From positions 1 through 12,726 of the forward strand of contig JAJYOH010000107.1 of assembly GCA_021796315.1 (NCBI GenBank): a stretch of DNA of 12,726 nt. Direction: 5' to 3'. This stretch comes from Chloroflexota bacterium. Its GTDB lineage: Bacteria > Chloroflexota > Anaerolineae > Anaerolineales > Villigracilaceae. This document shows positions 1 to 12,623 of this stretch, piece after piece (within the stretch, counting starts at the first letter, position 1; each line of letters opens with the position of its first letter). The notes under the pieces are model-generated. The model was given only the letters and a program-made list of their open reading frames with translations, did not search any database and was not told where the DNA came from. A program made the position numbers and the translations under genes.

Positions 1-1
1 T

Positions 2-568
2 CGCGCCTTCGCTCGTTTCTATCCCACCATTGCAATTGATGGTTGTGACAAACGCTGCGCGGCACGTGCGACCGAGATGTATTCGGGTAAACCGGCAGCC
101 AATGTTGTCGTGACAGATCTCCTGGCCGAATATGGGTTGGGCAAACCTGAAGGTTCACGACGCTTGAACGCAGTTGGGATGCAGGCCGTTGAGGCAACCA
201 GCCAGCGCACGATCGAATTGGTGGACGACTTGCTCGGAAAGCACTGGAATCGCCTCGCGGGGGAATTTGTTGAAGAAGATCAAAAGTCGGAAGCACAAGC
301 ACCGGTCGAGGCGACCTGCTCGTGTGGTTCCGGTATCCCCATCCAAAAAGTTGAGATCAACGGGCGAACGGTTACGCTGGTTGCCCTTCCACTCATTTTC
401 CAACAATTCCGCGATGCAGGAAAAACACCCACCGTTGCAACTGTCCGTGAACTGCTGGAAACGGTCAAGATTTACAACCCTGTCTCTGCCAATGAAGAAT
501 CAGATTACGCGACGGCATTGGAGCGTGAATATGCCGCGTTTTGTGAAAGACAGGAGACAACCGTATGA
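2..568 (+). CDS. DGC-motif putative zinc-binding protein, 5' end cut by window edge
   Basis: The reading frame is open from base 2, so the true start lies outside the window; 188 residues are visible. Near the start is a D-G-C-D-K-R-C-A stretch (Cys15 and Cys19 of the visible part), the hallmark of the DGC family, whose conserved cysteines are thought to bind zinc. A second Cys pair (C-S-C-G, about residues 106-108) opens a C-terminal region with the pattern V-E-I-N-G-R-x-V-x-L-V-A-L-P-L-I-F, which looks like a separate small domain. No membrane segment or signal peptide is visible, so a cytoplasmic protein is likely. The stop overlaps the next start in ATGA at 565, which points to translational coupling with the OsmC-like gene. 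The biochemical role is unknown; a metal or thiol function is inferred from the cysteines and the neighbours. Confidence 0.75.
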   Translation, partial: RAFARFYPTIAIDGCDKRCAARATEMYSGKPAANVVVTDLLAEYGLGKPEGSRRLNAVGMQAVEATSQRTIELVDDLLGKHWNRLAGEFVEEDQKSEAQAPVEATCSCGSGIPIQKVEINGRTVTLVALPLIFQQFRDAGKTPTVATVRELLETVKIYNPVSANEESDYATALEREYAAFCERQETTV

Positions 569-1035
569 GCCGCACTGCTGTCTACAACACGAGCGTTTCC
601 TGGAAGGGAGAGCATTGGGGACGTATTGTTATGGGGAATGGACCCGAAATGGACTTCTCCGCCCCGCCAGATGCACAGGGGCATCCCGGCGTGCTCACCC
701 CCGAAGATGCGTTTGTCGCTGCCGCCAATACCTGCATCATGATGATGTTCATCTGGGCGACCGAGCGATTCAAACTAAATCTAATTTCCTATGAGTGCCG
801 CGCCGAAGGCACGAAGTTGATCGAACTGGATCGCACCGAGATCTTCACACACTTGCGCTTTTGGCCAGTCATCCGCATCGCGGCTGGCGATGATAAGCCC
901 GAGATCATCGAGGCGCGTACCCGCCGTGCCTTGCAGTCAGCCAAAAAATATAGTTTGGTCGCCAATTCGGTCAAATCCGAAATTGTCATCGAGCCAACCA
1001 TCACCATTGAAACTGAGAAGGAGGTTTCTTTATGA
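565..1035 (+). CDS. OsmC/Ohr-family protein lacking the second active-site cysteine
   Basis: This 156-residue protein has the OsmC layout: an N-terminal beta-rich part (V-S-W-K-G-E-H-W-G), then T-P-E-D-A-F-V-A-A-A-N-T-C, which matches the helix carrying the first peroxidatic Cys (Cys57). Characterised OsmC/Ohr enzymes reduce organic hydroperoxides with two cysteines. The second normally sits in a K-Y-C-P-x-x-N/S motif. Here that place reads K-K-Y-S-L-V-A-N-S, with Ser130 instead of Cys, so classical two-Cys peroxidase chemistry is unlikely. Cys78 (Y-E-C-R) is an extra cysteine elsewhere. An AGGAG at 552-556 supports the start, which overlaps the DGC gene by 4 bp; the stop overlaps the following thioredoxin gene by 4 bp. 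A role in thiol or sulfur-transfer chemistry is inferred from context. Confidence 0.8.
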   Translation: MSRTAVYNTSVSWKGEHWGRIVMGNGPEMDFSAPPDAQGHPGVLTPEDAFVAAANTCIMMMFIWATERFKLNLISYECRAEGTKLIELDRTEIFTHLRFWPVIRIAAGDDKPEIIEARTRRALQSAKKYSLVANSVKSEIVIEPTITIETEKEVSL

Positions 1036-1286
1036 TTACCGTCAAAGTTTTAGGACCCGGTTGTGACAACTGCAAAAAAGTTGAAACGACTGCGCGCCAG
1101 GCACTTGCCAGCATAGGCGTGCAGGCTGAGATTATCAAAGTTGAAAATTATAACGAGATTATGCAGTACCCAATTCTCTCCACGCCCGGCCTGGTTATCA
1201 ATGAGAAATTGGCTTGCGCCGGGCGTGTTCCTAGCGTGTCCGAAGTGACCACCTGGCTGGCGGATGCCGCCATGCAAGAGGCGTGA
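1032..1286 (+). CDS. Small CxxC thioredoxin-fold protein (MTH895/TM0996 type)
   Basis: This 84-residue protein has a beta strand (I-T-V-K-V-L-G) leading straight into G-P-G-C-D-N-C-K, a redox-active CxxC (Cys11, Cys14). It also has the T-P-G-L-V-I-N segment, where Pro52 fits the cis-proline of thioredoxin folds, and a C-terminal A-G-R-V-P-S followed by a helix. This is the pattern of the archaeal/bacterial 'redox-active disulfide protein 2' or thioredoxin_3 family. It probably exchanges thiols or disulfides in the cytoplasm. Cys62, in the strand before A-G-R, is an additional cysteine. A strong AAGGAGG at 1018-1024 sets the start, which overlaps the OsmC stop. The partner protein cannot be told from sequence. 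Confidence 0.85.
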   Translation: MITVKVLGPGCDNCKKVETTARQALASIGVQAEIIKVENYNEIMQYPILSTPGLVINEKLACAGRVPSVSEVTTWLADAAMQEA

Positions 1287-1342
1287 GGTGGAATTTTCGC
1301 AAGCGATGTATTGTCTTCCACAATAACTCGAGAAAGTCTCCT

Positions 1343-1350
1343 AAAGGAGG
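1343..1350 (+). promoter_or_regulatory. Ribosome binding site that fixes the start of the second small thioredoxin
   Basis: AAAGGAGG lies 5 bases before the ATG at 1356. The frame is open further upstream (to 1311) but has no comparable site there. CTCCT at 1338-1342 directly precedes it and is complementary to AGGAG. Confidence 0.75.
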
Positions 1351-1355
1351 ATGAC

Positions 1356-1616
1356 ATGAAAATCGAGATTTTGGGAACTGGTTGCTACAAATGCGTTGAA
1401 CTCGAAACACTGATTGACGAGGTTCTTCAGGAACTTGGCAAGACCGATGTTGAAGTAGTGCGCGTGAACGATGAAAAACGAATTCAACACTTCATCCCAT
1501 TGGATGAAATCCCCGGCTTGCTGATTGATGGCATACTGGCGAGCACGCGCGAACTTCCTCCACGAGAAAAATTGGTCGAATGGCTCTCCGGTGTTTCTGT
1601 ATCAGAAACAAGATAG
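1356..1616 (+). CDS. Second small CxxC thioredoxin-fold protein
   Basis: This 86-residue protein is a paralogue-like relative of the gene just upstream. It starts with M-K-I-E-I-L-G-T-G-C-Y-K-C, giving a CxxC at Cys10 and Cys13, and has I-P-G-L-L-I-D with Pro53 at the cis-proline position. A C-terminal P-P-R-E-K-L-V-E-W-L helix closes the fold. The start at 1356 is chosen over the in-frame upstream codon at 1311 because of the strong ribosome binding site and because the protein then begins at the first strand, as in the family. The dipeptide between the cysteines (Tyr-Lys versus Asp-Asn) differs from the first copy, so the two may have different redox potentials or partners. It is separated from the previous gene by 69 bp. 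Confidence 0.85.
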   Translation: MKIEILGTGCYKCVELETLIDEVLQELGKTDVEVVRVNDEKRIQHFIPLDEIPGLLIDGILASTRELPPREKLVEWLSGVSVSETR

Positions 1617-1716
1617 ATTTTGTTGCACAGTATTTTCAATAGTGATGCCCAGAATATCGAGCAGGCCAAAATACATGTAATTGATTGCTGCACAAGTCAA
1701 GAAAGGAAAAACAAGC

Positions 1717-2130
1717 ATGAGCCTGATTGCGCCCTTGCTTCAGACCTCGCACACCTTTGCCATTGTTGGCGCGTCGCAAGATCGAAACAAATATGGCTAT
1801 GAAGTCTTTGATATCCTCACACGGCATGGACACACCGTTCTGCCCATCAACCCGAAATACGCCGACATTGACGGTGTTATCTGTTATCCATCCCTGCCCG
1901 ACCTGCCGCGTAACCCTGATGTGGTTCTGACTGCCGCACCTGCCATCGTTAGCGAACAAATTGCAAGAACTTGTGCCGCGCAGCGCATTCCCATTTTTTG
2001 GATGCCGCCCGGCACCGAGACAGACGCCGCGCTCGAAATCTGCAAACAAAATGATGTGACCGCCATCCACGGATATTGCCCTGTGTTTGTGTTGAAGTTG
2101 CCGCGCGAACGCTGGGTCGAACTGCCGTAA
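1717..2130 (+). CDS. CoA-binding domain protein (YccU-like, CoA_binding_2)
   Basis: This 137-residue protein carries the Rossmann-type start F-A-I-V-G-A-S (about residues 14-20), followed by K-Y-G-Y-E-V and V-L-P-I-N-P-K. Those features match the stand-alone CoA-binding family related to succinyl-CoA synthetase alpha. It also has the family's W-M-P-P-G-T-E stretch (about residues 95-101) and a late G-Y-C-P motif (Cys121). The family is known to bind CoA; its cellular role is not established. The start at 1717 follows GAAAGGAAAA and begins at the expected N-terminus; an upstream in-frame TTG at 1681 would add 12 residues without family support. The gene sits 100 bp after the thioredoxins and 12 bp before the thioredoxin-VKOR gene, so co-transcription with the latter is likely. 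Confidence 0.8.
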   Translation: MSLIAPLLQTSHTFAIVGASQDRNKYGYEVFDILTRHGHTVLPINPKYADIDGVICYPSLPDLPRNPDVVLTAAPAIVSEQIARTCAAQRIPIFWMPPGTETDAALEICKQNDVTAIHGYCPVFVLKLPRERWVELP

Positions 2131-2134
2131 GGAG
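2129..2134 (+). promoter_or_regulatory. Ribosome binding site supporting a TTG start
   Basis: AAGGAG overlaps the stop codon of the CoA-binding gene and lies 8 bases before the TTG at 2143. This supports TTG as the start of the thioredoxin-VKOR fusion, which needs that start to have a signal peptide. Confidence 0.7.
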
Positions 2135-2142
2135 AAAACAAT

Positions 2143-3207
2143 TTGACGCGCCTCGTCACTCTCTTAGCCCTCATCTTGCTCGCCACCGCTCGGACCGTTT
2201 TCTCCGTCTCCGCCCAAACTGCCAAGCCGCCCATTGTTCATGCTGTACTTTTTTGGATGAACGGCTGCCCACACTGCGAAGAAGTCATCCAAAATGTGCT
2301 TCCGCCATTGCGTGAAAAATTTGGAGAGCAATTCGATTTGTCCATGATCGAAGTGGTAACCATGCAGGATGTTGAAATTCTTTATGAGGTCGCCGCATCG
2401 TACAACATTTCCAAGGAACAGACAGGCGTTCCTTTTCTCATTATTGGCGACCATGTCCTGATCGGTTCACAACAGATTCTCGATGAACTTCCCAATTTGA
2501 TCGAACGATACCTCGCACAAGGCGGCGTGGACTTGCCTGCGAATCCCACCATCACAAAACTCCTGTCGCAGACATCTCCCGCATTTTCCTCGACCCCTAA
2601 CCTGCCCGCCGTTACCGAGCCTGCTCCTCCCATTGATATGGCTTCGGTTACCTCCACGCACATGCAATCAAACGGCTTCACGTTAGCCATCATCATCATG
2701 ATCGGAATGGGACTCGTCTTGCTCTACAGCTTGATAGCCTTCGCCTTCGGTAAGACCTTCCAATTTCCAGCTTGGGGCGATTGGCTCATCCCCATTTTGA
2801 TTCTTATTGGCATCGGCGTAGCGTCATATCTCTCGTACGTAGAAACCCAATCTGTGGAAGCCGTGTGCGGATCTGTCGGTGATTGCAATACGGTGCAACA
2901 AAGTCGCTATGCCAGATTGTTTGACATCCTGCCTGTTGGTGTTCTGGGTTTAATGGGTTACATCGCCTTGCTTGCCGCATGGCTGGTACGGAGATTTATC
3001 CCCAAGCTTGAGAAACATGCCGCAATCGGATTCTTTAGTATGGCGTTCTTTGCAGTAGTCTTCTCACTTTATCTCACCTACCTTGAACCTTTTGTCATTC
3101 GAGCCGTCTGCATCTGGTGTCTCTCATCGGCGGTGATTATGACCTTACTTCTATTGCTTGCTATACCATCAACGATCCGTCAGTTTGCCTTATCGGAGGA
3201 TAAATAG
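2143..3207 (+). CDS. Thioredoxin-VKOR fusion, disulfide-forming membrane protein
   Basis: This 354-residue protein begins at TTG. Residues 1-24 look like a signal peptide (hydrophobic core L-L-A-L-I-L-L, then V-S-A-Q). Residues 30-125 form a thioredoxin-like domain with G-C-P-H-C (Cys42, Cys45) and T-G-V-P-F (Pro97, cis-proline position). A Pro/Thr/Ser-rich linker (about 130-175) leads to about five membrane helices from residue 178 on. These carry the VKOR signatures: Cys242 and Cys248 (C-G-S-V-G-D-C) and the C-I-W-C pair (Cys323, Cys326) followed by L-S-S-A. VKOR proteins oxidise a thioredoxin-like partner and pass electrons to quinone, making disulfides outside the cytoplasm. The thioredoxin domain comes first here, the reverse of the well-known VKOR-thioredoxin order. 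A function in oxidative protein folding is well supported; a link to arsenic is only contextual. Confidence 0.88.
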   Translation: MTRLVTLLALILLATARTVFSVSAQTAKPPIVHAVLFWMNGCPHCEEVIQNVLPPLREKFGEQFDLSMIEVVTMQDVEILYEVAASYNISKEQTGVPFLIIGDHVLIGSQQILDELPNLIERYLAQGGVDLPANPTITKLLSQTSPAFSSTPNLPAVTEPAPPIDMASVTSTHMQSNGFTLAIIIMIGMGLVLLYSLIAFAFGKTFQFPAWGDWLIPILILIGIGVASYLSYVETQSVEAVCGSVGDCNTVQQSRYARLFDILPVGVLGLMGYIALLAAWLVRRFIPKLEKHAAIGFFSMAFFAVVFSLYLTYLEPFVIRAVCIWCLSSAVIMTLLLLLAIPSTIRQFALSEDK

Positions 3208-3932
3208 CCCCGATGAGCGGCTCGTTTGGATGTAGGATGAATGCTGGATCCCGCCGATGACGCCGAGTGCCGCAAAACCACGCCAGCGTATACGCAACTG
3301 CGCCAGTGGCTGGTCGGCTTGAGACAGCACAATCGGAAAAAGAATCAGGGTTAACGCCAGGAGCGCACCAAAAGCGGTGACTGTTGGATTTTCACGAAAG
3401 GTATGCTGAATCGCCGTCTTCTCGAACACCGGCGTAATTCCCCATATCATGCTGGCCGCGATTCCAGCCACAAAGCCTGTTGATGCACAAGAGCCCGCAG
3501 AGGTTCAAACACATCATGCCAAGGTGGGAGCGAGAGCAGGTAAGCTCCAAAAATCAACAAGCCCATTCCAATCATTGGAACTGGCTGCGGCATCTCCCGT
3601 AATGTAACAGACGATACCATCAGTGCAGCTGCTGGGCTGAAAACAAATAATGGCGCGACCAGCGAGACATCACCCTCCTTCAAAACCTGCGTTGCTGCCA
3701 GGTGTGCCAGGGCGTTCAGAATCGCCGAGCCAAGAATGCCAATGAAGAACCAATCATCCACGCGTGGGACGGGTCCAAAGAACAGGGTGAGATTGAGTCC
3801 CAGCAAGGGCAAGCCGAGTGCTTGTCCTGCCTAAGCTACAACGGAAACGTCAGTATCAGCCAGCAGGCGTTTGTTGATGATTGAATTGAATGAAGCTAGT
3901 AGCGCTGCACACAGGGCGAAGAAGATCCACAT
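3190..3932 (-). pseudogene. Broken EamA/DMT-family transporter gene
   Basis: Reading the minus strand from an ATG at 3932-3930 gives M-W-I-F-F-A-L-C-A-A-L-L-A-S-F-N-S, a typical first EamA helix. A TAG at 3833-3831 then interrupts the frame; the expected residue could be Trp (TGG). The frame continues with hydrophobic helices (W-F-F-I-G-I-L-G-S-A-I-L; L-V-A-P-L-F-V-F-S-P-A-A-A-L; G-L-L-I-F-G-A-Y-L-L) until about 3490. There the homology-like reading shifts to another frame, which resumes as G-F-V-A-G-I-A-A-S-M-I-W-G-I-T-P-V-F-E-K, the start of the second EamA repeat. It ends at 3190 after only about 90 residues of that repeat, overlapping the end of the VKOR gene by 18 bp, so the last helices are missing. 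EamA proteins export or import small metabolites across the inner membrane; this copy is not expected to work. The substrate is unknown. Confidence 0.8.
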
Positions 3933-3998
3933 TTTTGTTTTATAGCACCGCTATTCGTCACTGGAATAAAAGTCACTTGGGACAGATGACATATTTCA

Positions 3999-4026
3999 TT
4001 GACTATACTCTAGTATGGAATATAAT
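3999..4026 (+). promoter_or_regulatory. Sigma70-type promoter of the ars operon
   Basis: TTGACT (3999-4004) and TATAAT (4021-4026) are separated by 16 bp. This is close to the housekeeping consensus and directly precedes arsR. Transcription should start near 4032-4035, that is, at or very close to the arsR ATG at 4034. Confidence 0.8.
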
Positions 4027-4050
4027 TCAATGTATGTTGAACTATATTCC
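4017..4050 (+). promoter_or_regulatory. Probable ArsR operator, 14-bp inverted repeat over -10 box and start codon
   Basis: GGAATATAATTCAA (4017-4030) and TTGAACTATATTCC (4037-4050) are reverse complements except at one position, with a 6-base centre TGTATG that holds the ATG of arsR. The core TTCAA-N6-TTGAA resembles the known ArsR/SmtB operator pattern. Binding here would cover the -10 box and the transcription start, giving repression by occlusion. Confidence 0.8.
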
Positions 4051-4432
4051 GAGTGACATCCGTCCATCCCCTGTAAACTTGGAAACTTTAGCAGAGCGTC
4101 TCAAGGTATTAGCTGAGCCCAAACGCCTGCTCATTTTGGAAATGATTATCCAGGGCATGCAATGCAACTGTGAACTGGGCGACGCCCTGCAAATGGCGCC
4201 CAACCTAATCTCGCATCATTTAAGCAAACTACGCAAAGTGGGTTTGGTGAACGCCGAACGTGATCCGTTGGACTCGCGTTGGGTATATTACTCTGTCAAC
4301 AAAGCTGCTCTGGACGATCTCAACACTTCTTTTGGCTCGTTTTTCGATCCTGAAAGAATCCAACCTCGACGTTTGACCTGTGGTCCACAAACACCGGTGT
4401 GTGCGCCAGATTCAACCATTTCTAAAAAGTAG
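4034..4432 (+). CDS. arsR: ArsR-family arsenite-responsive repressor
   Basis: This 132-residue protein has a winged helix. L-E-T-L-A-E-R-L-K-V-L-A-E-P-K-R-L-L-I-L (about residues 16-35) is the typical first helices, and N-L-I-S-H-H-L-S-K-L-R-K-V-G-L-V is the recognition helix. The wing follows with R-D-P-L-D-S-R-W-V-Y-Y-S-V. Q-C-N-C-E-L-G-D (Cys44, Cys46) sits where the E. coli-type ArsR has its Cys-x-Cys arsenite site. Two more cysteines occur in the C-terminal tail (C-G-P-Q-T-P-V-C). The frame is open upstream to 3890, but the promoter's -10 box ends only 8 bp before this ATG and there is no ribosome binding site. The mRNA is therefore probably leaderless, and longer versions would start upstream of transcription. 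It should repress its own operon until arsenite or antimonite binds. Confidence 0.88.
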   Translation: MLNYIPSDIRPSPVNLETLAERLKVLAEPKRLLILEMIIQGMQCNCELGDALQMAPNLISHHLSKLRKVGLVNAERDPLDSRWVYYSVNKAALDDLNTSFGSFFDPERIQPRRLTCGPQTPVCAPDSTISKK

Positions 4433-4470
4433 TTTTTTTGCCTAAACCCTTCAATGGAGATTGAAATATT

Positions 4471-4830
4471 ATGAGTAATGTTATTCCCCTACTAAGCACC
4501 CTGCCGATTTCGATTGCCCCGGCTGACGTGGAATTCTTCGACCCGCCGATGTGCTGTCCCACAGGTTTATGTGGGCCAACCCTTGATCAAACCTTGCTTG
4601 ATGTAAATGAAATGATCCTGGCTCTCCAACGTGATAACCTGCGGGTGGAGCGATATCAGATGGCGAGCAATCCTAATACCTTTCTGGGCAACATCGAGGT
4701 GATGAGACTAGTGCGCGAGAAACAGATGGAAGCCTTGCCGATCATTGTTGTGCGCGGAAAGGTTATCAAGGTGGGTGCATATCCGAGTGCTGACGAAATC
4801 CGTTCAGCTCTTAGTGGAGCAACAAAATGA
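4471..4830 (+). CDS. arsD: ArsD arsenite metallochaperone
   Basis: This 119-residue protein has M-C-C-P-T-G-L-C-G-P at residues 27-36. Cys28, Cys29 and Cys34 match the vicinal pair and third cysteine (Cys12, Cys13, Cys18) that bind arsenite in characterised ArsD. The rest follows the thioredoxin-like ArsD fold (V-E-R-Y-Q-M-A-S-N-P-N-T-F; A-L-P-I-I-V-V-R-G-K-V). ArsD hands As(III) to the ArsA ATPase and raises its affinity. The N-terminus is about 15 residues longer than in plasmid R773 ArsD; no other start codon fits, and GGAGA lies upstream. The stop overlaps the arsA start by 4 bp, consistent with coupled synthesis of the two partners. Confidence 0.93.
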   Translation: MSNVIPLLSTLPISIAPADVEFFDPPMCCPTGLCGPTLDQTLLDVNEMILALQRDNLRVERYQMASNPNTFLGNIEVMRLVREKQMEALPIIVVRGKVIKVGAYPSADEIRSALSGATK

Positions 4831-6680
4831 CTCAATTTATTTTCTTCTCTGGTAAGGGTGGTGTGGGCAAAACCAGTATGGCGTGTGCGCACGCCGTCCG
4901 ATATGCTGACGAGGGCAAGCGCACATTGATTGTCACTACTGATCCTGCCTCCAACCTGGCTGATGTTTTTGAACAGGAGATTGGACACCAGGTTACGCCG
5001 ATTGCGGGCGTCCCCAATTTATCTGCGATGGAAATTGACCCTGACAAAGCCACGCAGGAATATATTGACCGCGCCATGTTACCCATCCGCGCGGCTTTTC
5101 CTCCGCAAATTGTGCAGGTGATGGAGGAGCAGATGAGTGGTCCCTGTACGGCGGAAGTGGCAGCTTTCGACCGCTTCACTGATTTTCTGGATGTTCCAGC
5201 CAATAACGGAATCATCTTTGATATTGTGATCTTCGATACCGCGCCAACTGGTCACACCATTCGATTACTGGAATTGCCCGCCGAGTGGAGTCAGTCCATT
5301 GATGCGGCGAGCGCCGGCAGCGGTCAAACTTGTCTCGGTCCAGCAGCAGCTATTCAGGACGCGAAACACAAATATGAGCGCGCCCTGGCCGCCATGCGGC
5401 AAGCGGAGCAGACCAGCTTTGTGTTCGTGCTGCACCCTGAGGCGATTTCGATTAAAGAAACTCACCGCACAATCAACGAGTTGAGCAAGCTCGACATCGG
5501 AAACTATCGCCTGATCATCAACGGGACCATCCCACCCGAAGGTGCTCAGAATCCGCTCTTTGCCGCGCGTGCTGAAATGCAGTCGCGTTATCTGAATCAA
5601 ATCGAGCGTGAGTTTTCCTTCCCCAAGCAACGCATGCATCTGCTGGCAGACGAAATCAAGGGCGCGCAAAAATTACGTCAGGTGGGAAAAATTTTCTTCG
5701 ACGGTGAACCAGCCTCAAAGGCGGATGAAGCGGCAGGAGTCCAATTTCAAAGCGAGACGTTCGCTTCATCCCTCGACCTCGTGCGGGCGCGCGTACAACC
5801 TAATGGTCATCAGCGGACGGTTTTCTTCGCCGGCAAAGGCGGTGTAGGCAAGACAGTCGCCTCGTGCATTACGGCCATCTGGCTGGCGCGACAGGGAAAT
5901 AAAACTTTACTATTGACCACGGATCCGGCTGCGCATTTGGGTGATGTTCTGGACACAGTTGTTGGCGACGAGGTTAAGGAAGTCAGTGGACTTTCGAATC
6001 TCTGGGCGGTCAATATTGACCCGAAAGCTGCGGCAGAAACGTACAAGACCCGCATCCTCGAAGATGCCCGTCAGCGTGGGCGACCCGCATCAGCCATCCT
6101 GATGATGGAAGAGGAACTCAATTCGCCCTGTACGGAAGAGATGGCGGCATTCGATAAGTTCATTGAATACGCTTCACAGGATGAATGGGATGCGGTGGTC
6201 TTCGATACTGCGCCGACAGGTCACACGTTGCGATTGTTGGAATTGCCCGTTGACTGGAGCAAGCAGATCGACGTAAAAGTTTTCGCCTCCGTGGATGCAA
6301 CCACTGCAGATGATGTTGCCAAGGCACGCTTCGCAAAAGTCATCGAGATGATGTCAGACCCTGAAAAAAGCACATTTGCCTTTGTGATGGTTCCAGAGTC
6401 CACGCCCATTCTCGAAGCCTGGCGTGCTGCGCAGGAACTGGGTACGGTTGGCGTTCAGCCCGGATTGGTGGTTGCCAACATGGTGATCCCACCGGAGCAA
6501 ACCACCACGTCTTATGTGCAATCCCGCCGTACCATGCAGGAAAAATATCTCAAGGAAATTGCGAAACGTTTTCGTGTACCAATGGTACAGATCCCATTGC
6601 TGCCCCATGAGATCAAAGGCTTGCAGATGCTAACTGAAATGGGTGAGCAGATGTATGGGCTGGAAAATGTGACGGTATGA
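4827..6680 (+). CDS. arsA: ArsA arsenite-stimulated ATPase, two-domain form
   Basis: This 617-residue protein holds two homologous ATPase halves. Each has a deviant Walker A motif (S-G-K-G-G-V-G-K-T at 8-16; A-G-K-G-G-V-G-K-T at 335-343) and the ArsA signature D-T-A-P-T-G-H-T (137-144 and 460-467). The three cysteines that bind As(III) in E. coli ArsA (113, 172, 422) have clear counterparts: Cys107 in G-P-C-T-A-E, Cys169 in T-C-L-G-P and Cys435 in S-P-C-T-E-E. The linker between the halves is about residues 293-328. ArsA docks on the membrane exporter and drives arsenite efflux with ATP. All catalytic and metal residues are present, so it should be active. It is coupled by ATGA overlaps to arsD upstream and to the small gene downstream. 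Here its partner would be Acr3 rather than ArsB. Confidence 0.96.
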   Translation: MTQFIFFSGKGGVGKTSMACAHAVRYADEGKRTLIVTTDPASNLADVFEQEIGHQVTPIAGVPNLSAMEIDPDKATQEYIDRAMLPIRAAFPPQIVQVMEEQMSGPCTAEVAAFDRFTDFLDVPANNGIIFDIVIFDTAPTGHTIRLLELPAEWSQSIDAASAGSGQTCLGPAAAIQDAKHKYERALAAMRQAEQTSFVFVLHPEAISIKETHRTINELSKLDIGNYRLIINGTIPPEGAQNPLFAARAEMQSRYLNQIEREFSFPKQRMHLLADEIKGAQKLRQVGKIFFDGEPASKADEAAGVQFQSETFASSLDLVRARVQPNGHQRTVFFAGKGGVGKTVASCITAIWLARQGNKTLLLTTDPAAHLGDVLDTVVGDEVKEVSGLSNLWAVNIDPKAAAETYKTRILEDARQRGRPASAILMMEEELNSPCTEEMAAFDKFIEYASQDEWDAVVFDTAPTGHTLRLLELPVDWSKQIDVKVFASVDATTADDVAKARFAKVIEMMSDPEKSTFAFVMVPESTPILEAWRAAQELGTVGVQPGLVVANMVIPPEQTTTSYVQSRRTMQEKYLKEIAKRFRVPMVQIPLLPHEIKGLQMLTEMGEQMYGLENVTV

Positions 6681-6973
6681 GTAAATCAATTCTTGTTCAA
6701 ATCATCGGTGCGCCGATTGCCTGCGTCGATGGCGTAAAGGATACCTGGCGTGATGTGGCTCACTGGGCAGCAGGACAATTAAGTGTGCACTTTGGTGATG
6801 ATGTGCAAGTTAAATACTATGATTTATTTGATGGGGATTGCCCGCCCATGCCAAACAACGCGCAGTTGCCTTTGGTAATGATCGCGGGTGAAGTCATCAG
6901 TAGTGGCGGGAAAATTGCGGTGCCCGTCCTTCGGCGGAAAATCGAATCTATTTTGGAGAAGCAAACTGCATGA
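6677..6973 (+). CDS. Small YuzD-like (thioredoxin-fold?) protein between arsA and arsC
   Basis: This 98-residue protein is predicted cytoplasmic. It begins with a strand (I-L-V-Q-I-I-G-A-P-I-A-C, Cys16), then a helix (D-T-W-R-D-V-A-H-W-A-A-G-Q-L), a strand (V-Q-V-K-Y-Y-D-L-F) and L-P-L-V-M-I-A-G, where Pro65 could be a cis-proline. The layout recalls the YuzD/DUF1462 disulfide oxidoreductase family, which I recognise only by pattern. There is no CxxC; Cys16 and Cys55 are the only cysteines. It overlaps arsA and arsC by 4 bp each, so it is embedded in the operon and made with the arsenic proteins. A job in thiol transfer to ArsC or in arsenite handling is an inference. It could also be a structural helper. 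Confidence 0.6.
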   Translation: MSKSILVQIIGAPIACVDGVKDTWRDVAHWAAGQLSVHFGDDVQVKYYDLFDGDCPPMPNNAQLPLVMIAGEVISSGGKIAVPVLRRKIESILEKQTA

Positions 6974-7374
6974 AACGCAAAGTCTTATTTTTATGTACCG
7001 GTAATTCGTGCCGCTCGCAAATGGCGGAAGCCATTGTCAACGCGCGGTTGGGCGATGAATGGGAAGCCGTCAGTGCAGGCACAAAGCCGGCGGGCTTCGT
7101 ACATCCGAAGGTGCTGGAAGCGCTTCGAGAAATCGGGATCCAGCACGAGGGTCGCTCAAAAATGGCGGACGAGTTTCGGGATGTGAATTTCGACCTAGTT
7201 GTCACGGTCTGCGATTCGGCGGCAGAGGAATGTCCTGTGTGGCTGGGTAAAGGGAAGCGCACTCATCACAGTTTTCCCGATCCTGCGCTGACCGATAACA
7301 TGGATGATTTTCGTAAAGTGCGCGAAGACATTGCACGTGTCATTCCAGCAATTCTGGAGCAATATGAATATTGA
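6970..7374 (+). CDS. arsC: Thioredoxin-coupled arsenate reductase
   Basis: This 134-residue protein has the low-molecular-weight phosphatase-like P-loop C-T-G-N-S-C-R-S (Cys9, Cys14), where Cys9 attacks arsenate. The redox pair is Cys81 and Cys88 in V-V-T-V-C-D-S-A-A-E-E-C-P, and F-P-D-P (Asp104) supplies the general acid. This is the Staphylococcus pI258-type ArsC, which reduces As(V) to As(III) through a cysteine relay and is recycled by thioredoxin. All key residues are present and the length is normal for the family. It overlaps the preceding gene by 4 bp. The product arsenite would go to ArsD/ArsA/Acr3 made from the same transcript. Confidence 0.95.
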   Translation: MKRKVLFLCTGNSCRSQMAEAIVNARLGDEWEAVSAGTKPAGFVHPKVLEALREIGIQHEGRSKMADEFRDVNFDLVVTVCDSAAEECPVWLGKGKRTHHSFPDPALTDNMDDFRKVREDIARVIPAILEQYEY

Positions 7375-7681
7375 TCTGTTATATTTCGAAGGTTGTCCTT
7401 CATGGGAGGGTGGAATGCAAAATCTGATTGCCGCCCTGGAAGCCGAGGGATTGGAAGCTGAAATCCACTTGGTAAACGTAACTGACAATCAGGAAGCCGC
7501 ACGGCTAAGGTTTTTAGGTTCACCTTCCTTTCAAATGAACGGTGTGGATTTGTGGAACGAAGCGCGCGAAGGTTACGATCTGAGTTGTCGTTTGTATTCC
7601 ACCCCGGATGGTATGAAGGGCGCGCCTACAATAGAAATGTTGCGCAAAAAGTTGTATGCCATGCGTGATCAATTGATATAA
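7364..7681 (+). CDS. Single-cysteine thioredoxin-like protein
   Basis: This 105-residue protein starts inside the end of arsC (11 bp overlap), with GGAG at 7356-7359. It has the pattern M-N-I-D-L-L-Y-F-E-G-C-P-S-W, where Cys11 sits at the thioredoxin active-site position but the partner cysteine is replaced by Trp. R-F-L-G-S-P-S-F gives the cis-proline, and a late L-S-C-R-L-Y motif carries a second, distant cysteine. Proteins of this type are common next to mercury and arsenic genes and are often labelled 'thioredoxin family' or 'alkylmercury lyase-like'; their role is not proven. With one active-site Cys it may form mixed disulfides or bind a metal(loid) rather than act as a classical oxidoreductase. 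An upstream start at 7304 in the same frame was rejected because it has no binding site and lies deep inside arsC. Confidence 0.8.
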   Translation: MNIDLLYFEGCPSWEGGMQNLIAALEAEGLEAEIHLVNVTDNQEAARLRFLGSPSFQMNGVDLWNEAREGYDLSCRLYSTPDGMKGAPTIEMLRKKLYAMRDQLI

Positions 7682-7703
7682 CTCAATTGCACATGCAGTT
7701 GAG
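7682..7703 (+). repeat. Inverted repeat in the leader of acr3
   Basis: CTCAATTG (7682-7689) and CAGTTGAG (7696-7703) pair with one T-G wobble, and the 6 bases between (CACATG) extend the symmetry by two more pairs. It lies directly after the stop of the previous gene and 26 bp before the acr3 start. It could be an mRNA hairpin that sets acr3 translation or protects the transcript, or a second protein-binding site. Its TCAA...TTGA arms echo the arsR operator but with different spacing. Confidence 0.55.
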
Positions 7704-7729
7704 AGAAAATTTGAGTGTGGAGGCATCTC

Positions 7730-8818
7730 ATGTCTGAAATTGCAACAACAAAAGCCCCGGCGCAAAGCCTGAGCAAACAACTCTCTTTTCTTGACCGCTA
7801 TTTGACTCTTTGGATTTTCCTGGCAATGGCGATAGGTGTTGGGATCGGCTTTTTGTTCCCGGCGGGAGTCAAAAGCTTCAATGACGCGGTTTCAGTGGGG
7901 ACGACCAACATCCCGATTGCCATCGGGCTGATCCTGATGATGTACCCACCCTTTGCCAAAGTGAAATACGAGGAGTTGGGGGATGTCTTCCGCAATAAAA
8001 AGGTTTTGACACTCTCGCTTATCCAGAACTGGATCATTGGTCCAATTTTGATGTTCGCGCTCGCCATCATTTTCCTGCGCGGTTATCCCGAATATATGGC
8101 CGGTCTGATCATGATTGGACTGGCCCGCTGCATCGCCATGGTGATCGTGTGGAACGAGCTGGCACACGGCGATACCGAATACGCGGCAGGTCTGGTGGCA
8201 TTCAACAGTGTATTTCAGGTGTTGTTCTACAGCGTGTATGCCTGGGTGTTCATCACCAAACTGCCGCCACTATTCGGGTTGACTGGCTCAGTGGTGAACA
8301 TCACCATCGGTGAAATCGCCAAAAGCGTATTTATCTACCTGGGCATTCCATTCCTGGCAGGTTTTCTTACCCGCACGGTGCTGGTTCGGATGAAGGGCAA
8401 GGAGTGGTATCACAAGGAGTTCGTTCCCAGGATCAGCCCATTGACTTTGATTGCCCTGCTGTTCACGATTGTGGTCATGTTCTCGCTCAAAGGCAACCTG
8501 ATCGTGCAGATACCGATGGATGTAGTACGGATTGCCATCCCACTCCTAATCTACTTTGTAGTGATGTTCCTGGTCTCATTTTGGATGGGACATCGTGTGG
8601 GTGCGGATTATTCACAGACCACGACGCTCTCGTTCACTGCCGCAAGCAACAACTTTGAGCTGGCGATTGCGGTGGCAGTGGCGGTCTTTGGCATTAATAG
8701 CGGCGCGGCCTTTGCGGCAGTGATTGGTCCGCTGGTGGAAGTGCCCGTGATGATCGGCCTGGTAAACGTGGCCTTCTACTTCCAAAAGCATATGTTCAAA
8801 GAAGCGCTGCCAGCATAA
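7730..8818 (+). CDS. acr3: Acr3 arsenite efflux permease
   Basis: This 362-residue membrane protein has about ten hydrophobic segments, starting with [16 protein letters not shown]. It carries the family landmarks: [13 protein letters not shown] with Cys134 in the fourth helix, S-N-N-F-E-L-A-I-A, and G-P-L-V-E-V-P-V-M with Glu338. In characterised Acr3 proteins the matching Cys and Glu are essential for arsenite export. GTGGAGG (7717-7723) supports the ATG at 7730 over an upstream in-frame GTG. It is the last gene of the operon and is followed by a strong terminator. It could export arsenite alone, using the proton gradient, or be energised by the ArsA made from the same operon. Confidence 0.95.
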
Positions 8819-8839
8819 AAAAATCAAAAGCATCAATTG

Positions 8840-8872
8840 AAAGCGGCAGAGAATCATGTCTACCGCTTTTTT
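8840..8872 (+). terminator. Intrinsic terminator of the ars operon
   Basis: AAAGCGG (8840-8846) pairs with CCGCTTT (8863-8869). The stem continues past one mismatch with AGA/TCT, and the 3' arm runs into a T6 tract (8867-8872). It lies 22 bp after the acr3 stop. Confidence 0.9.
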
Positions 8873-9086
8873 CATCATAGATTTCTCAACCAGAAATCTG
8901 TACTTTTTCCCTAGACTTTCTCACGAATTCTGAAGCAGAGCAGAATTATCCATTGATTCACGATGTTGTTATTTATCGAGTGCAGCCGGCCCTGCGCCCA
9001 TGCACGATGGAATCCAAAGATATCATGGATTACCACTCAGTCGGACACATAATCAATAGCAACAATACAAATACGCTGCGCTTAAC
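8873..9086. other. Intergenic stretch between convergent genes, with three short inverted repeats
   Basis: No credible gene is seen. Three perfect inverted repeats stand out: AGATTTCT/AGAAATCT (8879-8899, 5-base loop, followed on the + strand by TTTTT at 8903-8907), AATTCTG/CAGAATT (8926-8947, 8-base loop) and AATCCA/TGGATT (9011-9031, 9-base loop). The first could be a weak backup terminator for acr3. None is followed by a T tract on the minus strand, so the end of the minus-strand arsC transcript is not clear. Confidence 0.5.
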
Positions 9087-9515
9087 CTATGCTTGTTCAA
9101 CCAGCCAGTCTTTGACTCTTTTCTCAATCTGATCGCGTATCTGGCGGAACTTGGCGAGTTTCTCTTCTTCCGATCCGTCGAAAGCTGCAGGATCCTCAAA
9201 AGACCAGTGCATACGATTGGATATTCCAGGCCAGGTGGTGGGGCAATTTTTATCCGCATCGTCACAGACCGTAATGAGATACTGGAATAAAATTTTGCCG
9301 AGATATTCATCCACGCCTTTTGAGCGTTGACCTGAAATATCCATTCCAATTTCAGCCATTACCTTGATTGTGATTGGATTCAAGCCTTTCGGTTCCAATC
9401 CCGCACTATATGCTTCAAATTTATTGCCGCCATATTTGCGCAGGAACGCTTCCGCCATCTGACTGCGAGCCGAGTTCCCCGTGCAGAGAAATAAAATTCG
9501 TTGTTTGTTGGGCAT
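9087..9515 (-). CDS. arsC: Second arsenate reductase, ArsC/LMW-PTPase type
   Basis: This 142-residue protein is read on the minus strand with TAGGAGA just upstream of the ATG. It has the P-loop C-T-G-N-S-A-R-S (Cys11 as nucleophile), the redox cysteines Cys84 and Cys91 in I-T-V-C-D-D-A-D-K-N-C-P-T-T-W-P-G, and F-E-D-P (Asp108) as general acid. It is therefore also a thioredoxin-type arsenate reductase. It belongs to a different subgroup from the operon copy: Ala replaces the second P-loop Cys, and the C-terminal half (E-E-E-K-L-A-K-F-R-Q-I-R-D-Q-I-E-K-R-V) is longer. It points toward the ars operon, convergent with acr3, and has its own candidate promoter, so it can be regulated separately. 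Confidence 0.93.
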   Translation of the reverse strand: MPNKQRILFLCTGNSARSQMAEAFLRKYGGNKFEAYSAGLEPKGLNPITIKVMAEIGMDISGQRSKGVDEYLGKILFQYLITVCDDADKNCPTTWPGISNRMHWSFEDPAAFDGSEEEKLAKFRQIRDQIEKRVKDWLVEQA

Positions 9516-9542: not shown

Positions 9543-9584
9543 CTTATCCTAAACCACACCTGTTAACAGGCAATTAAGGATAAG
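9543..9584. repeat. Nested palindromes between the minus-strand arsC and the recombinase-like gene
   Basis: A perfect 12-bp palindrome, CCTGTTAACAGG (9559-9570), lies inside a wider perfect 8-bp inverted repeat, CTTATCCT (9543-9550) and AGGATAAG (9577-9584). The two centres differ by 1 bp. A third small repeat, GGTGA/TCACC, lies at 9529-9543. The palindromes cover candidate promoter elements on both strands, so they look like operator sites; a recombination site is an alternative. Confidence 0.6.
9546..9573 (-). promoter_or_regulatory. Candidate promoter of the minus-strand arsC
   Basis: On the minus strand TTGCCT (complement of 9568-9573) and TAGGAT (complement of 9546-9551) are 16 bp apart, each matching four of six consensus bases. 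The match is moderate, but the location, 31 bp upstream of the ATG, fits. Confidence 0.45.
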
Positions 9585-9591: not shown

Positions 9592-9717
9592 GGGGTAAAG
9601 ATTAACTACCAACATCAATTTAACGACACAAGAAATGGACCCGGATTATCAACTTATTAAAATCTGCGTCATGAACATCACACATTTTGTTTTTTTACAG
9701 TCGATCCGGGAGCAGGC

Positions 9718-10533
9718 ATGAATATCCACACTTCGCGTGCATGCAATGCCGCACAACGCGATTATCTTACCTTCGTTGAAAGTAGCCGGCATAACGATCT
9801 TGCAAGTTGGGTCAGCAACATGCAGTCACGTGGCCTGGCAGACAACACCGTCCGACAACGAGTCTATCTGGTTCGCAAATGGTTGGGAAGTAACGAGAAT
9901 ATAGCATTACCAACCCGCCGCAATGTGCGCGAACCAAAATGGCTGAACCTGGAACAAGTACAGGCCATGCTTGCCGTAATACCCAACAATGAACGTGGTC
10001 GCCGTGACTTTGCTATGATCACAGCCTTTCTCCTCACCGGTCGGCGATTGGGTCAGGTAAGCAGTTGGAGATGGATCGATTTCCAACAGGGTTATCGAAA
10101 CCAAACAACCAAAAATTTGAGTTTTCCAAAAGCGGTCTTGGATGCGCTGCAAGCCATCCGATCAGGGTGCACGGATGCACATTCCAGCACCATGCCCCTA
10201 TCTTTTACTGCCCAAGATGAAGACTATATTTTCGCTTCTTCCCATTGCCAATTACAGAGATACAAGAATCAAAACAGCATATTGAAAAAGCAGCCACTCA
10301 GCCCGCAAGAAATAAACCGTCGCATTAGACGTTATGCGCGCCTGGCAGGGCTGGAGCCTCAGGGTATCACCACTGAAGCCCTGCGACATACACAAAGCGA
10401 ACTCGACAAAAATACACTTATCACCCTAGTTGAGAAAATACTTAACCATCGTAACGCAAGCCCGGTACGTTGGAAACACATCGAACGCGATGGACGGCTG
10501 CATGGAATTGGCCGTCGAGGCCATCGTATATAA
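9718..10533 (+). CDS. Tyrosine-recombinase-like protein without the catalytic tyrosine
   Basis: This 271-residue protein has an N-terminal core-binding-like helical part (about residues 10-60: L-A-S-W-V-S-N-M-Q-S-R-G-L; T-V-R-Q-R-V-Y-L-V-R-K-W-L). A catalytic-like domain starts at W-L-N-L-E-Q-V-Q-A-M-L. L-L-T-G-R-R-L-G-Q-V holds the first Arg (Arg110), and T-K-N-L-S-F-P may hold the Lys (Lys132). T-E-A-L-R-H-T is the H-x-x-R box with Glu220 where His is usual and Arg223 kept. L-N-H matches the last His (His244). The nucleophile position reads V-R-W-K-H, so Trp252 replaces Tyr, and no tyrosine follows His244. DNA strand cleavage of the normal kind is therefore not expected. A GGGAG lies 7 bases before the start. 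Its place at the head of a three-gene set suggests a DNA-binding or regulatory role; a decayed integrase is the other reading. Confidence 0.72.
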   Translation: MNIHTSRACNAAQRDYLTFVESSRHNDLASWVSNMQSRGLADNTVRQRVYLVRKWLGSNENIALPTRRNVREPKWLNLEQVQAMLAVIPNNERGRRDFAMITAFLLTGRRLGQVSSWRWIDFQQGYRNQTTKNLSFPKAVLDALQAIRSGCTDAHSSTMPLSFTAQDEDYIFASSHCQLQRYKNQNSILKKQPLSPQEINRRIRRYARLAGLEPQGITTEALRHTQSELDKNTLITLVEKILNHRNASPVRWKHIERDGRLHGIGRRGHRI

Positions 10534-10584
10534 ATTGAGAAAGCCTGGCAGCACAGACACGATCTCCAGCATTGAGAATATCCC

Positions 10585-11343
10585 ATGAAATTTATCACTA
10601 TCAACCGCATTCTCTGGGCCGTCTATATTGCCCTATTAGGCGTACTGCTCCCCCACACTGCCTGGGTCTTCCAAAACTTTGAACCGGAAAACAAAACCGA
10701 CACGATCACATTTGTAGCTTGGGCCGCCGCTTTCGCCTTCGAGGCTTCCATCGCTGCCCTGACGCATAAACTATCTGAACACATTGAACACACTCCAAAG
10801 CGTCTTTCAGCGTGGTTAAAATTCCGGCATCGATATATGAACGCCTATTCACTTGGGCTTGCATCATCCGTTGTAGTTTCATCGATGGCCAACCTTGCGC
10901 ATGCGGTCGAGTTTGGCAGGCCAATGACCATCATCACCGAATGGAATATTCCCTTCAGTGCCTATGCACTGGCCTTCGGAGCGGTCCTGCCGCTGGTGTC
11001 TTTGATCTTCGCACGCGTTCTATCCAATGTAGTTGAGACCGAAGCTGAGGAGGATCCCACTTTCATTGAAGCGAAATCAACCATTGCCGACCTTCGTCGG
11101 CAGCTACGGGAGAGCGAAGCTCAACGAAAAGCCGCCGAAGAAGCCCGTATGAACACTGAAGCCAAATTCGGAATGAGAGGCGCACAACTCACCAATCTTT
11201 TATCGGACGACAAACGGGAGCGGATTCTTGCCGCACATAAGCTCTGGTCTCAACTTCCGGGTTCAGCAATCGCTATGATTGCAGATGCATCGCCATCCTA
11301 TGTATCGGAAGTTCTCAAAGCCATCGTAATAGAAGAAACATAA
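10585..11343 (+). CDS. DUF2637-like membrane protein with coiled coil and C-terminal helix-turn-helix
   Basis: This 252-residue protein has four predicted membrane helices: about 9-29 (L-W-A-V-Y-I-A-L-L-G-V-L-L), 41-62, 86-107 and 124-146 (A-L-A-F-G-A-V-L-P-L-V-S-L-I-F-A). A charged, Ala/Arg/Glu-rich segment at about 150-196 is likely a coiled coil. The C-terminal D-K-R-E-R-I-L-A-A-H-K-L to P-S-Y-V-S-E-V-L-K-A-I (about 209-246) reads as a helix-turn-helix. The four-helix block followed by coil and DNA-binding end resembles the DUF2637/SpdB2-like proteins of actinobacterial conjugative elements; I assign this by pattern only. It would place a DNA-binding end on the cytoplasmic side of the membrane. 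It starts 51 bp after the recombinase-like gene and ends 2 bp before the next gene, so co-transcription is very likely. Confidence 0.65.
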   Translation: MKFITINRILWAVYIALLGVLLPHTAWVFQNFEPENKTDTITFVAWAAAFAFEASIAALTHKLSEHIEHTPKRLSAWLKFRHRYMNAYSLGLASSVVVSSMANLAHAVEFGRPMTIITEWNIPFSAYALAFGAVLPLVSLIFARVLSNVVETEAEEDPTFIEAKSTIADLRRQLRESEAQRKAAEEARMNTEAKFGMRGAQLTNLLSDDKRERILAAHKLWSQLPGSAIAMIADASPSYVSEVLKAIVIEET

Positions 11344-11345
11344 CG

Positions 11346-12623
11346 ATGCAAAAAACGGATTATTTGTCACACCTCCCGCTTGAATGGAATCCGATCTGCC
11401 CGCCGCATAGAAGGGAAACAAAATTGGATGTCTTCAAACACAGCCTTTCGGCCACGGATGGCCTGCCACCCTATGCACAGGCACGCATCATTGACCTGAT
11501 CTCAAACCAGCTTCGTAAAGTGCGACCACATGCCTGTCTTTGGGTCTCAGTCGATACTCCCGGAAATTGGTATCTTGATGAGATCAGGCGTCTTGTGAAG
11601 GGCAGGATCCCAACGGCGATCCTGCCGGTCAACCAAGCTCCCATCGATGGGTGGGATTTTCATCCTGATATTATTGCCTATCTCGAAGATGAAAATGATG
11701 ATTGTCCCCGGACAATGAATCGTTTCGCCGCCAGTGAATTTGGACTCAAAGACAGTAGCTTGCGCATTCTGCGCATCCTGGCACGCTTGAGGAATGCCCA
11801 TACTCCGGAGATTACCTCATTGGCCGGTTACAGCGAGACCTATGTTCGTAAACTCCTGAAGGAAATGCGCGATAGGCGACTGGTCGAATGGAAAAAGATC
11901 GGTAAGTACGATAGCTGGGAGATCAAAACCCAAGGGTTACGCCTGGCACACCGCTCATGGAACCTGCCAAAGAAAGTACACTTTGCTCCGTATCGGCGGG
12001 AATTCCGATACGCCGGCGAACATCACCGACGCGTATCGCGCATGTGGCGGGCTTGGTTGGAAACCGCATATCCATCAGTTAAAATCTGGGAATGCTGGAC
12101 CGAAGTATCCGTTCTTCATGGAATTCCGGACGCTCTAGCCTGGGGTCGAGTGAGCGGTTGGGAATGCCTGTTCTGGCTGGAGGTGGATAGTGGACACAGT
12201 TCCAGGAAAGTCATGGAAAGGAACTATGGGAGGAGACTGAGAACGATCTACACTCATTCGTACACATGGCAAATGCCGATTGTGGTCTGCATCCTAGGGC
12301 CGCGCTGGGTAGTGGAAGAATTTAAATTCTGCATTCCAAGCCTTTACCCTAGTGTTGCCATTATCGGGCACGACTGGCGAGAATTTGGAAAATTACCAAC
12401 CTACGAATTTGGTCAGTGGCATGAGGATCTGGATGAGACCGAATATCGGCACAATCTCTGCCCTCGAGGAAAGTTATCCTTTAATCCTGCGCATTACCCT
12501 TCGAAAACAAAAACCAAAAAGATTTCAAAACTGCCAAAACAAAAATCGGACAAGCCGAGGTTCATCGCCCCATCAACAATCGAGAACGAAAAATACTGGG
12601 GAAGAGATCCATACGATTTGTAA
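11346..12623 (+). CDS. Replic_Relax-like protein, winged helix plus PD...ExD nuclease-like domain
   Basis: This 425-residue protein has an N-terminal part (1-125) that I do not recognise. It is followed by a winged-helix region at about 137-200 (L-R-I-L-R-I-L-A-R-L-R-N; Y-S-E-T-Y-V-R-K-L-L-K-E-M; R-L-V-E-W-K-K). Further on come G-I-P-D-A-L-A-W-G (Pro260, Asp261... by count P260-D261) and W-L-E-V-D-S-G-H-S-S-R-K (Glu279, Asp281). This arrangement matches the Replic_Relax family of plasmid and phage proteins, whose C-terminal fold looks like a PD-(D/E)xK nuclease; members include relaxation or replication-initiation factors. The tail (about 385-405) is Lys-rich and probably contacts nucleic acid. 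It follows the membrane protein by 2 bp. Cleavage activity is not proven. Function in replication, transfer or regulation of an element is inferred. Confidence 0.65.
   Translation: MQKTDYLSHLPLEWNPICPPHRRETKLDVFKHSLSATDGLPPYAQARIIDLISNQLRKVRPHACLWVSVDTPGNWYLDEIRRLVKGRIPTAILPVNQAPIDGWDFHPDIIAYLEDENDDCPRTMNRFAASEFGLKDSSLRILRILARLRNAHTPEITSLAGYSETYVRKLLKEMRDRRLVEWKKIGKYDSWEIKTQGLRLAHRSWNLPKKVHFAPYRREFRYAGEHHRRVSRMWRAWLETAYPSVKIWECWTEVSVLHGIPDALAWGRVSGWECLFWLEVDSGHSSRKVMERNYGRRLRTIYTHSYTWQMPIVVCILGPRWVVEEFKFCIPSLYPSVAIIGHDWREFGKLPTYEFGQWHEDLDETEYRHNLCPRGKLSFNPAHYPSKTKTKKISKLPKQKSDKPRFIAPSTIENEKYWGRDPYDL

Follow-up and report, generated by a model that had tools for sequence, protein, structure and literature searches.

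Three adjacent genes for a recombinase-fold, a membrane and a Replic_Relax-like protein: a possible DNA-handling module of a mobile element in Chloroflexota

Introduction

The tyrosine-recombinase fold is described as a repressor in the case of MrpR (PMC10516654), and as part of the transfer apparatus in the cases of MpsA (with MpsB), MobK and TcpM, where the tyrosine is reported as kept or needed (PMC8152469, PMC6414798). Relaxases of the MOBC type are described as relatives of PD-(D/E)XK nucleases for which a covalent intermediate was not observed (PMC12857230); the Pfam family Replic_Relax (PF13814) is listed as MobC (PMC5357655), and one plasmid is described as carrying a Replic_Relax protein and an ars operon (PMC3756968). 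Here we describe three adjacent genes, Rec, MemHTH and RR (genes 1 to 3), on a 12,726-nucleotide (nt) contig (JAJYOH010000107.1, assembly GCA_021796315.1; its whole length is referred to below as the window) of a Chloroflexota bacterium of the Anaerolineales. Their products are remote relatives of known parts in a seemingly unreported combination, as no report of it was found in the literature, judged on titles and abstract openings among the matches listed. With a probability of roughly one half, they form a DNA-handling module for the mobilization or maintenance of a mobile element from Anaerolineales (Chloroflexota) or a close relative.

Results

The first 9.5 kb of the window are an arsenic-resistance region, which is followed by the three genes, all on the + strand. 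Rec (nt 9718–10533, 271 amino acids, aa) is a tyrosine-recombinase-fold protein without the nucleophile. MemHTH (nt 10585–11343, 252 aa) has four predicted membrane segments, a cytoplasmic helical stretch and an end resembling a helix-turn-helix (HTH), and RR (nt 11346–12623, 425 aa) is predicted to consist of an N-terminal alpha/beta part, a winged helix, a PD...ExD domain and a basic tail. The gaps are 51 bp (genes 1 and 2) and 2 bp (genes 2 and 3), and the contig ends 103 bp past gene 3. The order, strand and spacing given by the initial annotation were reproduced, and a single transcription unit is plausible from this layout. Because 71, 486 and 206 relatives exist for genes 1, 2 and 3, respectively, these are not chance open reading frames (ORFs).

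Rec matches the Pfam family Phage_integrase (E 4.9e-11), and its predicted structure comprises N-terminal core-binding-like helices (residues ~1–60) and a catalytic-domain fold (~74–251). Conservation was counted over 65 close homologues, six of the 71 matches having been excluded (one chimeric, one garbled, four distant). In box II (nt 10375–10386), placed by alignment with XerD and with element integrases, E220 replaces the catalytic histidine and R223 is retained, both in 65/65. The position we assign to the nucleophilic tyrosine is taken by W252 (nt 10471–10473), a tryptophan in all 65; this register is our own placing, as both profile alignments stop short of W252 and model confidence is low at this site. 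A tyrosine is absent from the assigned position throughout, and from the entire last 50 residues in 52/65. Two arginines are retained, while the box II histidine and, by our placing, the tyrosine are gone, and the earlier view of a recombinase fold without its nucleophile is upheld. Box III residue 244, again our placing and of unsecured register, is H in the Rec of the window and one other of the 65, N in 37 and S in 13. Thirteen control integrases retain the box II histidine and, by eye, GH...Y. Near the C-terminus, the tail LHGIGRR (residues 261–267, nt 10498–10518) has every residue conserved in 64 or 65 of 65, and recurs in five of the six excluded matches, once as LHGIGQR. A decayed integrase was considered and rejected, given the complete fold and the conserved family. 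By analogy, Rec would bind specific DNA without cutting it, and a role as regulator or site-recognition protein is favoured.

Profile matches to Rec were found in three viral contigs, one without the tail (L059), one with it (L060) and one that ends before it (L061). In L060 (IMG/VR, 45 kb) the Rec relative (nt 9989–10654, 66 bits, E 2.6e-19) retains RYARLAGL, WK and LHGIGRR and has lost the box II arginine too. An integrase-like gene distinct from it lies on L060 as well (nt 6333–7271), with HRFRHTF and LGHSSLDMVKEY; integration can therefore fall to another protein where Rec occurs, which favours the binding role. By eye, L060 also has a ParB-like gene and an Xre-type repressor-like gene, and neither MemHTH nor RR was found in it. 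Used as a query, its Rec relative returned L060 and L061 and nothing else. Two overlapping genome samples, of 396 and 251, yielded no Rec of the LHGIGRR family; scoring covered no more than 6 to 10 candidates in each genome, and a Rec could therefore be missed. The profile matches in 2/396 and 2/251 genomes have no LHGIGRR in six frames of the DNA examined and were not counted as Rec. Four distant short relatives (P0308–P0311) retain EWK or EWR and LHGIG[RQ]R, and P0310 has a C-terminal extension resembling a LuxR-type HTH. As queries they matched nothing in the viral contigs, nor in 298 genomes (a genome search without positive control).

The membrane part of gene 2 (nt 10594–11022) was predicted from hydropathy and charge counts, with segments at residues 4–27, 41–59, 90–108 (marginal, at 1.42 against a threshold of 1.4) and 128–146. 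As the basic loop 60–89 carries six lysine or arginine residues, both termini are predicted to lie inside. Profile positions 157–212 match a dynein heavy-chain stretch (E 0.0018), which probably signals a coiled coil. The HTH-like segment (residues 227–244, SAIAMIADASPSYVSEVL; nt 11263–11316) is a block conserved in an alignment of relatives and was recognized as HTH by eye. Gene 2 has no Pfam family above cut-off, and its HTH end was matched by no family model. The membrane protein with HTH-like end proposed earlier is supported; the comparison with DUF2637 (PF10935) made at the same time was not borne out. DUF2637 proteins have membrane helices and a cytoplasmic part, and occur in mobile elements. 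Gene 2 resembles them in this, but the DUF2637 model matches at none of the MemHTH places of nine genomes or records (two sub-threshold matches lie elsewhere in genome G285; 0/14 control genomes scored above cut-off, leaving this comparison without a positive control), and the identity was rejected.

MemHTH relatives occur in eight viral contigs and in 3/396 genomes (one a partial match), in elements that carry DnaB, sigma-factor, ParB-like, FtsK-like or terminase genes, and no constant neighbour was found across them. One genome has two related MemHTH elements with an adjoining cold-shock-like small gene and several genes in shared order; one of the two additionally encodes an FtsK-like and a ParB-like protein.

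The predicted model of gene 3 (predicted local distance difference test, pLDDT, 75.7) shows an N-terminal alpha/beta part, a winged helix (residues 128–205, nt 11727–11960), and then helix (H) and strand (E) elements in the order H225–241, E246–250, E265–269, E272–280, H287–308 and E312–318. The order H-E-E-E-H-E is that of the PD-(D/E)xK core; residues 254–262, which contain the PD, are modelled with low confidence. In the homologues (120 listed of 206), P261-D262 (nt 12126–12131) is conserved as P in 120/120 and D in 119/120, and E279-V280-D281 (nt 12180–12188) as E in 120/120 and, at position 281, D in 115 and E in 5. D262, E279 and D/E281 provide the conserved restriction-endonuclease-like acidic residues typical of MOBC, the conservation being that within the RR family. 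Comparison by hhalign of the gene 3 profile with 35 canonical Replic_Relax segments, drawn from genomes of the same class, gave a probability of 96.1 (E 3.4e-9) across the winged helix and PD...ExD. The RR of the window has no match to PF13814 up to E 1; this model matches 8/36 RR relatives at E up to 5 (best 0.0058), short of the gathering score. Profile and predicted model make gene 3 a remote Replic_Relax/MOBC-like protein, in agreement with the domains and kinship suggested in the initial annotation.

RR was not found in viral contigs nor in 11 viral records, and neither RR nor MemHTH has a match in the plasmid and phage collections. Among the matches listed, the PD...ExD domain has no solved-structure match of its own, the winged helix taking all listed places; the best viral structure matches are Bacillus phage G and JL proteins (234 and 258 columns, query template-modelling scores 0.29 and 0.31). 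An assignment of gene 3 as a CARF or CasR protein was rejected, as the PADLOC matches of two RR proteins fall inside residues 110–201, the winged-helix region. A canonical Replic_Relax protein (L062) adjoins long frames that by eye resemble coupling-protein ATPases; it has no match in the plasmid collection. The gene table of the CloDF13 record lists nothing under the name MobC. One short tandem repeat lies within gene 3.

Co-occurrence of the three families was estimated from database clusters whose longest contigs agree exactly in bp and have room for both proteins; expected counts come from 1000 trials with lengths jittered by 7%, and pairs too long for a shared contig were dropped. Rec (71 proteins) and the close subfamily of MemHTH (34 proteins out of 120 listed among the 486 relatives, chosen after an initial unfiltered count) share six contigs against 0.29 expected, a number reached in 0/1000 trials. 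Rec and RR share two (0.38 expected, 60/1000 trials), as do close MemHTH and RR (0.14 expected, 12/1000). The other MemHTH share none with Rec (0.42 expected) or with RR (0.37 expected). One contig is common to both RR pairings; at 2222 bp it is listed for all three families but has room for two of the proteins at most. Without the size filter the counts for the three family pairs are weaker (7 vs 1.5, 3 vs 0.8 and 3 vs 1.0). On these counts, Rec and close MemHTH look like a real conserved pair, and RR like a separate element gene loosely joined to them here.

One genome scan gave 19 RR loci, which are not independent (L006 and L007 share an identical RR, and several come from one assembly), with up to 10 kb examined on each side (1.7–8.8 kb upstream at seven). 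MemHTH occurs at 0/19, and is absent at E 1e-10 from the 14 RR-bearing genomes. A Rec of the LHGIGRR family is likewise at 0/19; the Rec-profile matches there are four integrases scoring 16 to 21 bits, where the Rec of the window scores 430. A fixed three-gene set is accordingly not supported, the neighbours of gene 2 being variable as well. What recurs beside RR is a small HTH-like protein (C2, 14/19; HTH_11 below cut-off), a tyrosine integrase (13/19), ParA (13/19), the family C5 (10/19), a primase-like protein (9/19), an HTH_36 protein (6/19) and a DnaC-like ATPase (6/19), with Pfam labels taken from representatives in L002 and L009. The same backbone genes were seen at three loci in two long-contig genomes, and in one of these genomes, G364, an integrase adjoins tRNA-Met. 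RR in Anaerolineales is part of an integrated-element backbone, and a mobile-element origin of the genes, as first suggested, is supported. Exact direct repeats were not found from the tRNA regions of L002, L009 and L017 (14 bp), nor in G364_a and G226 (22 bp); G364_b gave only local repeats and a CRISPR (clustered regularly interspaced short palindromic repeat)-like array among the matches listed. By hhalign, MemHTH was rejected as a homologue of the element membrane protein C8 (probability 0.1) and of C2 (0.3), and Rec as a homologue of C5 (0.1).

Four Hsd-type clusters (Pfam on one member per cluster) contribute one or more genes at 12/19 RR loci, and RR elements may carry defence cargo beside a constant backbone. 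Type I restriction-modification-type genes were seen downstream of RR in this set, and in G364 (L099 and L100 joined, 29.7–30.6 kb) the CRISPR-like array lies ~10 kb from RR. The 1064-aa primase-like protein of L002 (nt 5864–9058) matches a PADLOC model for DnaG-like proteins associated with reverse transcriptases (E 8.4e-34). The most distant RR (L019, 37% identity) follows an M23 peptidase and a membrane-protein-like gene and precedes restriction genes; its backbone is perhaps different from that of the other RR elements.

Upstream of gene 1 there is an imperfect inverted repeat (nt 9543–9584, no strand assigned; 11-nt arms, 20-nt spacer), a weak candidate operator or terminator, and a promoter-like site (nt 9636–9663). 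Promoter-like sites number 10, against 5.4 (standard deviation 2.2) in shuffles, and terminator-like sites 7, against 4.4 (standard deviation 1.9); an Rfam search gave no match. The arsenic region (10 ORFs run) encodes an ArsR-type HTH protein, ArsD, a double ArsA, a phosphatase-like arsenate-reductase candidate and an SBF-family transporter. Within nt 1–9515, the usual ars genes are joined by OsmC, thioredoxin and VKOR genes. Of the two phosphatase-like genes, on opposite strands, the second lies at nt 9087–9515 (minus strand).

Discussion

In the proposed module, RR would make a single-strand nick at an origin of transfer or replication and form no covalent link with it, in the manner described for MOBC relaxases. 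MemHTH would bind DNA close by and anchor the complex at the membrane. Rec would bind specific DNA, leave it uncut, and serve either as the module's repressor or as a partner in site recognition. A more specific version, a membrane-tethered nicking complex in which a MOBC-like nuclease joins a four-helix DNA-binding anchor and a tyrosine-less Rec whose LHGIGRR tail docks partners or the origin, is doubtful. Maintenance instead of transfer, with MemHTH tethering element DNA to the membrane for segregation, Rec binding a site and RR assisting replication, is conceivable if somewhat unlikely. It would suit the DnaB, sigma-factor, ParB-like, FtsK-like or terminase genes near MemHTH relatives and the ParA and primase-like genes near RR, as well as the description of Replic_Relax proteins in Bacillus phages that are presumed plasmid prophages (PMC10454425, PMC9658697). 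The lack of Rec in the 396- and 251-genome samples, against 65 close protein-database clusters, also fits DNA that is seldom binned; however, no ParA or replication gene is among the window proteins tested, and partition by itself would not call for the full conservation seen at the acidic site of gene 3.

That the three are unrelated element genes, chance neighbours in this contig, is suggested by RR standing without Rec and MemHTH at 19/19 genome loci, by MemHTH having no constant neighbour and by the L060 Rec relative lacking a MemHTH or RR match; yet Rec and close MemHTH co-occur above chance, the spacing is 51 and 2 bp, and Rec–RR and MemHTH–RR each have one more clean contig, which makes this decidedly unlikely. 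We give still less credit to gene 3 as a defence nuclease: its relatives lie near restriction-modification genes (the Hsd-type genes at 12/19 loci) and in one genome near a CRISPR-like array, but it is the ParA, integrase, primase-like and small HTH genes that recur, whereas the defence genes are variable, the PADLOC matches are confined to the winged helix, and the neighbour in the window is an arsenic operon. It is hardly credible that gene 1 is a tyrosine-recombinase-like relaxase with another nucleophile. Such relaxases exist, as MobK, TcpM and MpsA (PMC8152469, PMC6414798), but MobK and TcpM are described as requiring the tyrosine, this kind is described as missing the core-binding domain that Rec possesses, and in Rec the box II histidine is lost as well.

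The DNA-handling module remains the reading we prefer. To our knowledge, the mobile elements of Chloroflexota have been little studied, and RR, as part of integrated elements in which restriction genes are frequent, would be useful for finding them. The RR family, a candidate relaxase, goes undetected when the curated Replic_Relax threshold is applied. The Rec family is a clear example of a recombinase fold retired from catalysis, under strong selection and with a new C-terminal motif, and offers, alongside MrpR, a second possible route from cutter to binder.

MrpR (YopR) of SPbeta and SroF of phi3T, like Rec, are tyrosine-recombinase folds in mobile elements, the first two as repressors, and Rec agrees with MrpR in joining this fold to lost catalytic residues. 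The losses differ, in that MrpR is described as retaining K and Y and lacking the first arginine, whereas in Rec two arginines are retained and it is the tyrosine and the histidine of box II that are gone. The LHGIGRR tail also sets Rec apart from MrpR, and by structure comparison its fold is nearer to Xer proteins than to MrpR. Relative to an active tyrosine recombinase, Rec has the fold without the box II histidine and nucleophilic tyrosine; the tyrosine that a MOBM-type relaxase uses for transfer is missing from the assigned position in 65/65. MobK, TcpM and MpsA share with Rec a recombinase fold employed by mobile elements, but are described as having kept the tyrosine and lost the core-binding domain, the reverse of Rec. 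Gene 3 and Replic_Relax/MOBC (CloDF13 MobC, pAD1 TraX) are alike in having a winged helix followed by a restriction-endonuclease-like PD...ExD and in belonging to mobile elements; gene 3 differs in falling under the Pfam cut-off and in an additional N-terminal part of ~125 residues. The plasmid described in PMC3756968 parallels the window in bringing a Replic_Relax protein together with an ars operon.
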